Assembly: GCF_011397635.1 (NCBI RefSeq)
Contig: NC_064758.1
Span: 21,536,513-21,600,512, forward strand
Reading direction: 5' to 3'
DNA from: Epinephelus fuscoguttatus
Taxonomy: Eukaryota > Chordata > Actinopteri > Perciformes > Serranidae
Length of the DNA stretch: 64,000 bases
Shown: in pieces, positions 18,401-23,692 of the stretch
Position numbering within the stretch: position 1 is the stretch's first letter
Layout of the letters: the number at the start of each line of letters is the position of its first letter
Program-made: the position numbers and the translations under genes
Notes under the pieces: generated by a model
The model's input: only the letters and a program-made list of their open reading frames with translations
Told to the model about the DNA's origin: nothing
The model's database searches: none

Positions 18401-21400
18401 ATCAAATCATTCCTCAAAAATGAAAACAACAGTGTCCTAAAACAACAAAAAACGTGTTCAGCTGGATCTCTGACCTTTCAATGGTAATGAAACTCTAATT
18501 GTTAAACAGTGGCTACGACTCTGATTTAACGATTCCACTCACCTTCCTTGTTCTCCAGGATGTTGGGGGCGAAACCTCCCTCGTCTCCTACATTGGTGGC
18601 GTCCTTGCCATATTTCTCCTTGATGACATTCTTCAGGTTGTGGTAGACCTCAGCACCAATACGCATGGCCTCCTTGAAGCTGCTGGCTCCCACAGGCAGG
18701 ATCATGAACTCCTGCATGGCCAGCTTGTTGCCTGCATGTGAGCCGCCGTTGATGACATTGAAAGCCTGAGAGAGGGCAGAGAGTATCGGCTTTCAGCCTA
18801 ATGGAATCACGACTGAATTTATGGTTCTTTGGCTCAAACGCTAACGGTACATGTCTGTCAGGACTGTGAACATTAAGAGTTTCCATAAAGCCTCTTAATT
18901 AGGTAACTGCAGTGTTGTGCTCACAGGGACAGGGAGGATGACTTCACGGTTGCCAGCCAGGTCAGCAATGTGGCGGTAGAGAGGAACGCCCTTCTCTGCT
19001 GCACCAGCCTTGCACACAGCCAGGGAGACGCCCAGGATAGCATTAGCACCAAACTTAGCTGAGGGAGGGTAGACACAGATATTTCAATATACTGTGTGGA
19101 GACTGCATTCATGAAACATTTACTGTCCTCCAATATATTCCTTACTGATTATTTCTGTGGCTAATAAGCAAAAATCAATAATGCATAACCTTGAAATAAG
19201 TAGGATCTAACTGACTTTTCTGTCGCACAAACATGATGTATGTGTGCCTACTGATGTTTCTGTGGTGGTTTTACAGGTTCCAGTCTAATGGGATGAAACT
19301 ATTGTTTTTGTCCTGGTTTATTATTATTCTTCAAAAATGTTTTTGCATATTCCTGTGAGATGGTAAGTTGTCAGCATGAAATTTTCACCAGTAATTAAAA
19401 GTCGTGACCAAATGCTGCTTAATGAATATGAAACAAAATCTGGTGCAGATATCCATCTGTACTCACTGTACAAATTTGCCTCAAGAACCATTAAAGTCTG
19501 CCTGATCAGATTTGTCGTCATTTTAATTTTTTTGAAAAACATATTTTTGACATCTCCTAGGGCGCAGGTCTGATTTATACCAAATTTTGTGTGGATCATT
19601 GTAGAATCGAGCTCATTAGAAGCTGCATAAAGCTTGGATATTTTTAATTAAGCTGTTGAAACATGTCCCCAGAATGTTTGTTGAATTTAGTGAGAGGCGG
19701 CGATGGCCAGTTGATGGCTTCAGCACAGCTCGACCACATCGACTGGCCCGACCCAGATCAGGTTGTACATTAAAGAAAATCTATCTGATTGTGATAACCT
19801 GTTAGTCATCTTTCATGTAGGGTGTCATACTCTGTCATAGATTTTCCTTAACGGTTGTCAAATTTTGACGGTACATGTGGGCTTGAACCCCAAAATCGCT
19901 GCTTACAGCTTTATTTTTTTTTTAAAATATTTTTCTTAGGTCTGTGTCCAAAATCACTCCCTTGTTCACTAACCTTCCTTGTTCATTCACTTACTACTCC
20001 CTACATAGTAGACACTCAGTAGTTCACTCAATAGTCAGCAGTCAGTTGATATTTCTGGCACTAATCAATCAGTCATTTTACGACAACACTGACAGCTGTA
20101 GAGCTGCATGGAAAGTTTCTGTTTCACATTTATAAAATGTGAAGCATTGTGGAATTGTTAGCAGAATGGACTGTATATATCAAAGTCTCTAATTTTTAAA
20201 ATATTTCTGATTACTATATAGTGCATAAATTTCACACTCATTCCAAAAACTTGGCATAGGGTACATATAGTTCAGACACACCCAATGTCTCAAAACAATC
20301 TTAGGCAGAGTGGAAATTTGGATAAAATACTCATATCATGGTATATGAAATTTTGTATTGCAGTATCAACATGCACACATCAAGATATGCATTTTTATCT
20401 GGAAAATCAGTAAAGAAACTGTTAATGACTAAAATAACCAGAGAGGAATTTTAGTTTATGGTTAATCCTGCAAACTGAATATCTGACTAACCAAGATGCT
20501 TCATGACATTGATGCAGGAATGCTCACTGTACTTGCACACACACCGAGGTATTCAAACATGTATGGCTAATTGTCTGACGGCTGACACACTGGCATATAC
20601 ATAACTATACAAATGTCATACATACATTGTCACATTGCCACACCCTTTCTAAAGTAAGCTCACAAAAGATTGTCACACCAGTACACAAAGTAGCATCTTA
20701 CATTTGTTCTCTGTGCCATCCATATCCAGCATCAGCTGGTCGATCTTGTTCTGCTCCAGTACGTTCACGCTCTGGATAAGACATAAGTGACAGGTTATAC
20801 TGCATGTTTGGAAATAAAAGATTAACTTTGTTTAATTCTGACTTTGTTAGTTCAGAAGAACACACTAAAATCACGTTAGAATAATCACAACATCTCAGAA
20901 CTATGTCACTGAAGCTCCACTAATACAATTGTTATACATACTTACAATATTTGTATATGCAAAGGTCAAAAACCAATGAGGTTAATGTAAAATAGGGAAC
21001 AACCAACTGCTCAACATGTCTGTTTGATGCAATGTCTTACCACTTGTTTTTAAATAAGACTGTCAGTAAAGCTGCTAATGTTAATGCTAATATTTTTGTG
21101 TCATCATTTTCTACTGAATTTTCAAAAGACAATTTGATCTAATAATTTGAGGCTTTTGATACTGGCACACAATAAAATTAGTCAAACAATAAATGGTCCT
21201 ACCTTGTCAACCAGTGCAGGTGCAATTACTTTATTGATATTCTCAACAGCTTTTAAGACACCTGCAAAGGAACAAGCAGACCATGACTGACCCAGACAGA
21301 GACCATGCAGAGCAGGCGAGGCAGATGACCACAGAGCACCTCGGCCAATCTCATGTGGGTGTGTGAGTCATTCTTTTATAGATCTGTGAACATCTGCTAA

Positions 21401-23692: not shown

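Follow-up and report, generated by a model that had tools for sequence, protein, structure and literature searches.

The eno1-type enolase gene described here most probably carries a real and fairly young pair of mutually exclusive exons, in which exon 4b would serve as an alternative to the canonical exon 4a, giving two 432-residue enolases. In the explanation that best fits the sequence, exon 4 would have been duplicated in tandem and the upstream copy, 4b, would have become a replacement for 4a, so that the two enolases would differ at 10 of the 20 residues of segment 61-80. Exclusivity would follow from the reading frame, and the choice between the copies would be made at the acceptors, each of which lies in a homologous predicted hairpin formed within its own exon. 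Judged from these features, the arrangement is a credible mutually exclusive exon pair in an unexpected gene, the kind itself being already known. If it is true, splicing would be a second route to vertebrate enolase diversity, which is usually put down to the separate alpha, beta and gamma genes. The coordinates of all features, given in Table 1, refer to the window, that is, the whole 64-kb stretch of DNA that was analyzed.

Table 1. Positions in the window of the eno1-type gene, the exon 4 pair and the associated candidate regulatory features
Feature	Position	Strand	Basis
eno1-type enolase gene, coding part (exons 2-12)	15435..23692	-	intact open reading frame, GT-AG coding introns
Exon 3 (common, upstream)	21700..21795	-	exon model
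Intron 3-4b (146 nt), candidate PTB-type regulatory tract	21554..21699	-	pyrimidine content and simple motif counts
4b acceptor hairpin, 5' arm (-3 to +7)	21547..21556	-	RNA folding prediction
Exon 4b (first in gene order)	21495..21553	-	40/59 nt identical to 4a; first G completed from junction codon
4b acceptor hairpin, 3' arm (exon 36-45)	21509..21518	-	RNA folding prediction
TGCATG hexamer (42 nt upstream of 4a, downstream of 4b)	21304..21309	-	motif match
4a acceptor hairpin, 5' arm (-5 to +4)	21258..21266	-	RNA folding prediction
Exon 4a (canonical)	21203..21261	-	matches same segment of human ENO1 and four paralogs
4a acceptor hairpin, 3' arm (exon 39-47)	21215..21223	-	RNA folding prediction
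Exon 5 (common, downstream)	20702..20771	-	exon model

Gene identity and genomic neighbourhood

In the assembly that was searched (1.047 Gb, 26 contigs), contig 7 contains the window, whose gene content points to a teleost. The eno1-type gene has 11 coding exons per mRNA, which join into a spliced frame of 432 amino acids. The full-length open reading frame is nearest to vertebrate alpha-enolase and places the gene among the alpha-type (eno1) enolases. When the 4b-containing protein was compared with PDB sequences, alpha-enolase accounted for the top three of 68 matches, aligned over residues 1-432, and the match to human alpha-enolase was full length. Carbonic anhydrase and sugar transporter exons lie near the gene in the window, a combination that we take to resemble the ENO1-CA6-SLC2A neighbourhood of human chromosome 1.

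The sugar transporter (Sugar_tr) exon is found at 53204-53581 on the minus strand. On the plus strand, a carbonic anhydrase exon fragment (37490-37636) and a pentraxin-domain exon (42737-43429) lie about 5 kb apart, and the two presumably fit the carbonic anhydrase VI-pentraxin fusion of fish. A low-complexity stretch at 38088-38681, also on the plus strand, has a frame that reads as repeats and is probably a tandem repeat. No Rfam families were found in the window at gathering scores.

The exon pair and its reading-frame logic

Exons 4a and 4b are both 59 nt long, enter in phase 1 and leave in phase 0, are bounded by AG and GT sites, and share 40 of 59 nucleotides and 10 of 20 residues. A 233-nt intron separates them. 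Their coordinates, lengths, phases, splice sites, spacing and residue identity agree with a preliminary description of the region, to which it should be added that, with the gene on the minus strand, 4b stands 5' of 4a. As a control, exon 4a was compared at every position with one strand of 200 random 64-kb sequences that had the local first-order composition; the best match reached 35 of 59 nucleotides, with a mean of 31. The ungapped repeat that joins the two copies covers 64 nt, barely more than the exon, and no third exon 4 copy was found in the 64-kb window. The pair thus has what is expected of mutually exclusive exons that arose by tandem duplication: homologous neighbours within one gene, more similar than the random maximum, with equal phases, compatible length and functional-looking splice sites, and with a non-productive outcome when both or neither are used.

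This outcome is specific. Inclusion of 4b alone or 4a alone gives the full 432-aa frame, while inclusion of both leads to a stop at codon 83, with later exon junctions still to follow, and skipping of both leads to a stop at codon 85; either premature stop would be expected to send the mRNA to nonsense-mediated decay. The earlier proposal that a productive mRNA can use only one copy therefore holds, as does the frame shift on double inclusion, but the 118 nt said to be added need correcting, since 118 nt stand in place of 59 and the net gain over the normal mRNA is 59 nt. Steric exclusion by a short intron was ruled out as the source of exclusivity: 233 nt is too long for it and long enough to be spliced, so that exclusivity would rest on the frame and on acceptor choice.

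The same distance would permit double inclusion, a 233-nt intron being spliceable as a matter of general knowledge, and 4b could in principle act as a poison exon that joins 4a, shifts the frame and lowers eno1 through nonsense-mediated decay, a role that the position of the codon 83 stop would suit. We consider this very improbable, given that a poison exon would need neither an enolase consensus nor an exact phase pair, whereas 4b in place of 4a gives an intact enzyme frame and its substitutions tend to respect enolase columns.

Splice-site strength was scored with a model based on the five enolase genes of this genome (47 acceptors and 45 donors, 4b excluded); for the paralogs, exon borders came from an automatic tblastn placement that contains errors, as in the case of an additional intron. 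The 4b acceptor scored 9.45 bits compared to a true-site median of 10.68 (17 of the 47 true acceptors scored lower), and its donor 8.63 bits compared to a median of 7.83 (27 of 45 lower). The corresponding values for 4a were 16.68 and 9.28 bits. Across both strands of the window there are 520 segments in which AG and GT flank 59 nt; both sites came within 3 bits of those of 4b, or scored better, in only four, and the two of these four that are open in phase are 4a and 4b.

Substitution pattern and the possibility of decay

The mutually exclusive arrangement put forward in the preliminary description is supported, at the level of sequence, by frame logic, splice sites and similarity, and more weakly by the pattern of substitutions. 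Column variability was taken from 52 enolase segments, comprising 46 unique prokaryotic sequences, two human sequences and the four paralogs; the prokaryotic set began as 80 loci, of which L045 was excluded because its sequence contains an internal stop, and the remaining 79 rows collapsed to the 46. The 10 positions that differ between 4a and 4b lean toward the variable enolase columns (mean entropy 1.83 versus 1.04; permutation p = 0.019).

An alternative reading is that 4b is a duplicate that is decaying or never had a function, that its intact appearance is fortuitous, and that it enters the mRNA seldom or not at all. The dN/dS check suggested earlier gave a pairwise 4a-4b value of about 0.66 (0.37/0.56), leaving room for relaxed constraint on 4b, and comparison with the paralogs indicates that most of the amino-acid changes appear to lie on the 4b side. 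In addition, the enolase-profile score of 4b is far below that of 4a (10.6 versus 23.4), the four other enolase genes of the genome are without 4b, and the pair was selected for its intact look. In a simulation of drift from 4a that allowed substitutions only and left out indels, the open frame survived 19 substitutions with a probability of 0.70 and the splice dinucleotides with 0.23, neither of which is very improbable. Set against this, the acceptor and donor of 4b are of normal strength, its changes tend to spare conserved columns, and joint retention of both splice dinucleotides (AG and GT), an uninterrupted frame and a profile score no lower than that of 4b had probabilities of 0.20, 0.07, 0.02 and 0.006 at 10, 13, 16 and 19 substitutions, that is, 0.6-7% over the range of 19 to 13 substitutions, before indels. 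This profile version was preferred to an earlier neutral simulation, which was set aside in view of its conserved columns having been chosen after it was known which were kept. The case that these sequence comparisons make against pure neutral drift of 4b is moderate, the pair having been chosen for looking intact, and decay is regarded as an unlikely explanation relative to a functional exon pair.

Predicted acceptor hairpins and a candidate regulatory tract

Folding predictions place the acceptor of each exon 4 copy in a hairpin with a downstream part of the same exon, and the pairing is in equal register in the two copies (-5 to +4 with 47 to 39 in 4a; -3 to +7 with 45 to 36 in 4b). At +2/41, 4a has T-A where 4b has G-C, with both sides of the change synonymous, while pair +7/36 is T-A in 4a, where it falls outside the stem, and A-T in 4b. 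The exon of the closest paralog, C1, is mismatched at +2/41 and so does not polarize the paired change.

Acceptor burial was compared with that in 150 synonymous recodings for 48 enolase exons, a set from which predicted non-AG acceptors and two repeats from overlapping pieces of the C17 gene had been dropped. Exon 4a ranked first and 4b second, two ranks that are not independent because the exons are homologous; only 1 of the 150 recodings was equally buried for 4a and 3 for 4b, compared to 23 for exon 4 of C1, which shows a weaker version. With 400 recodings in which the first codon was varied as well, 11 were as buried as 4a and none as 4b, and the stem was as long in 17 and 4, respectively. 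Absolute burial over six context lengths always placed 4a first and placed 4b second in five and third in one, and with a wider acceptor window and 100-nt flanks 4a (0.00) and 4b (0.13) were again the most buried, with exon 5 close (0.15). It is important to note that the hairpin was spotted first and the control designed later, and that all folding was done in silico.

Stability presents a different picture. Among 200 shuffles, those folding as well numbered 19 for the 74-nt 4b exon and 7 for its 54-nt core, 4 for 4a, 7 for exon 5 and 137 for exon 11; synonymous recoding of 4b matched or exceeded its stability in 192 of 400 cases. In these predictions, the stability of the 4b hairpin is itself ordinary, and only its placing on the acceptor is unusual. 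No RNA structure beyond chance was detected region-wide (z = -0.59), and no inverted repeat of at least 12 nt occurs within 20800-21900; the acceptor hairpins are shorter and include G-U pairs.

The intron between exon 3 and 4b is 77% pyrimidine; the gene's remaining ten introns have 48-57%. A long pyrimidine tract is expected of a PTB-repressed exon; taken with the acceptor hairpins, the tract suggests that 4a would serve as the default and that 4b would be under regulation and specific to a tissue or state. The acceptor-burying predicted hairpin in both copies and the strong tract before 4b also speak against decay of 4b. The TGCATG between 4b and 4a is presumably an RBFOX-type hexamer; as regulatory evidence it is weak, because intron 3 of C1, a gene without 4b, contains TGCATG three times, and the putative RBFOX-type site is a lead only.

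A fuller model can be sketched, in which a PKM-like enolase switch arose by tandem duplication in the fish eno1 lineage, twin hairpins kept by paired synonymous change hide the acceptors, and a repressor bound to the pyrimidine tract chooses between them. This model is tentative and considerably less probable than the exon pair itself, but the twin hairpins would offer a concrete model for the exclusivity of duplicated exons where spacing does not force it.

Other enolase genes and the age of the duplication

A protein search of the genome, in which the best 50 candidates were scored, identified four further enolase genes (C1, the closest, and C8, C17 and C23), each with one canonical exon 4; no 4b-like exon was found in the stretches of these genes that were compared. 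All 46 protein matches obtained from the 50 scored candidates fall at the five gene loci, with no spliced eno1 retrocopies among them, and among the best-scoring candidates the DNA of 4b and its upstream intron has no second match in the genome. The peptide score of 4a with 4b is 43, and the best scores elsewhere outside exon 4 are 30 (intron 3 of C1, through no splice site) and 24 (intron 2 of C23). In the tblastn pieces of C17 (L035) and C23 (L036), exon 7 is apparently split near residue 186 by an extra intron that is absent from the window gene.

The synonymous distance between 4a and 4b is 0.56 (about 14 sites), compared to 1.39 for the window gene and C1 when exon 4 is left out, and the probability of five or fewer of 14 synonymous sites differing at the gene-wide rate is 0.033. 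From this comparison of distances, the exon duplication appears, weakly, to be younger than the split of the window gene and C1. The opposite order, in which 4b was present before the two eno1-type genes diverged and was then lost from C1, is also compatible with a functional exon pair. It would draw on intron 3 of C1 (L032), where about 225 nt past exon 3 a strong pyrimidine tract and an AG are followed by DVKGLVSF, which faintly resembles the start of 4b, GVKRAVKY; a score of this kind is reached by 3 of 140 (about 2%) pyrimidine-preceded AG sites, a background that may include 4b and the C1 site. The synonymous distances argue for the younger date, and a gapped alignment of 4b with C1 intron 3 does not stand out from shuffled sequences, of which 145 out of 500 score as well. 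The C1 segment was consequently not accepted as a relic of 4b, and an old origin is considered unlikely.

Expected consequences for the enolase protein

The exchange of 4a for 4b would introduce L63K, K64R, E67K, N68Y, K71E, V72F, I73L, V78C, D79N and K80Q, while G61, V62, A65, V66, I69, N70, A74, P75, A76 and L77 are common to both. Segment 61-80 belongs to the N-terminal domain, outside the catalytic barrel, and the listed active-site residues lie well clear of it in the sequence. The charge swap that had been emphasized is correct at the level of individual residues (Glu67 to Lys and Lys71 to Glu), but the charge of the segment moves only from +1 to +2, and Asn68Tyr, Val72Phe and Val78Cys are as notable, the 4b residues occurring in none of the 52 compared segments. 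The same holds for N79 and Q80, in columns that are gap-rich in the comparison set and where the D79 of 4a is likewise absent. Two conserved columns are altered in 4b (N68Y and I73L); the hydrophobic core described as kept is mostly retained, with the exception of the Ile73 to Leu change.

The most likely consequence for the enzyme would be a modest change in surface or stability, not in catalysis, and any effect of the swap on enzyme function, including the earlier suggestions of dimer stability, partner binding and moonlighting roles, is conjecture. To our knowledge, no regulatory role of the enolase 61-80 segment has been described. If the pair is real, it would provide a natural experiment on the role of the N-terminal domain: since the isoforms differ in one N-terminal segment only, any difference in activity, stability or partners would map to ten residues.

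Comparison with known exon switches and enolase forms

The nearest parallel is PKM, a glycolytic enzyme gene with two tandem homologous mutually exclusive exons under PTB-type control, to which the pyrimidine tract in the enolase gene suggests a similar mode of regulation; the enolase pair, if true, would be a second glycolytic exon switch beside it. There are several differences between the two systems. In PKM, the exon choice changes allosteric control at a known site and the exon length preserves the frame, whereas the enolase exons encode a 20-residue N-terminal stretch and have a length that breaks the frame. Predicted isoforms of fish alpha-enolase may well exist in RefSeq or Ensembl.

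Among the matches listed from 5.39 million open-access papers, judged mostly by title, none describes a switchable enolase, in line with the preliminary description. Tandem duplicated exon substitution has been catalogued for 236 events in 214 human genes, over 90% of them with bony fish orthologues, and the main text of that article mentions enolase, ENO1 and ENO3 zero times (PMC9741552). The catalogued events resemble the enolase pair in that tandem homologous exons swap and the proteins differ in one homologous region, but they are mostly shared with bony fish, whereas the enolase pair looks younger. Enolase and ENO1 are also not mentioned in the main text of PMC9013439.

Other variation in enolase products is of a different nature. 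MBP-1 (spelt MPB1 in the figure legend), an N-terminally truncated form of human ENO1 called alternatively spliced (PMC4356359), is likewise another product of the ENO1 gene, but by truncation and not by an exon swap. In mouse heart, the accessible sections of one report describe a shift from ENO1 to ENO3 together with the PKM exon pair and do not mention an enolase exon swap (PMC12487847); there too enolase forms are exchanged between states, but the forms come from separate genes and not from splicing. The excerpted text of a study of Eno1 retrocopies includes one with a deletion of exons 10-12 and no exon swap (PMC2881024), and the extracts of two fish papers each name eno1a once, as induced by hypoxia or by cold, and make no mention of its splicing.

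Enolases in prokaryotic contigs

The prokaryotic comparison set yielded additional observations on contig labels, with all identities referring to the best segment. The enolase of L045, which carries the label of a Verrucomicrobiaceae metagenome-assembled genome (MAG), is 66% identical and has a stop in its read-through frame; this locus may be a eukaryotic contaminant that contains an intron. Among archaeal MAG contigs, eight with a DPANN label (L037-L044) have enolases that are 66-72% identical to fish Eno1, while the enolases of two other DPANN-labelled loci (L048 and L053) and of bacteria, L045 apart, are 50-54% identical to it.
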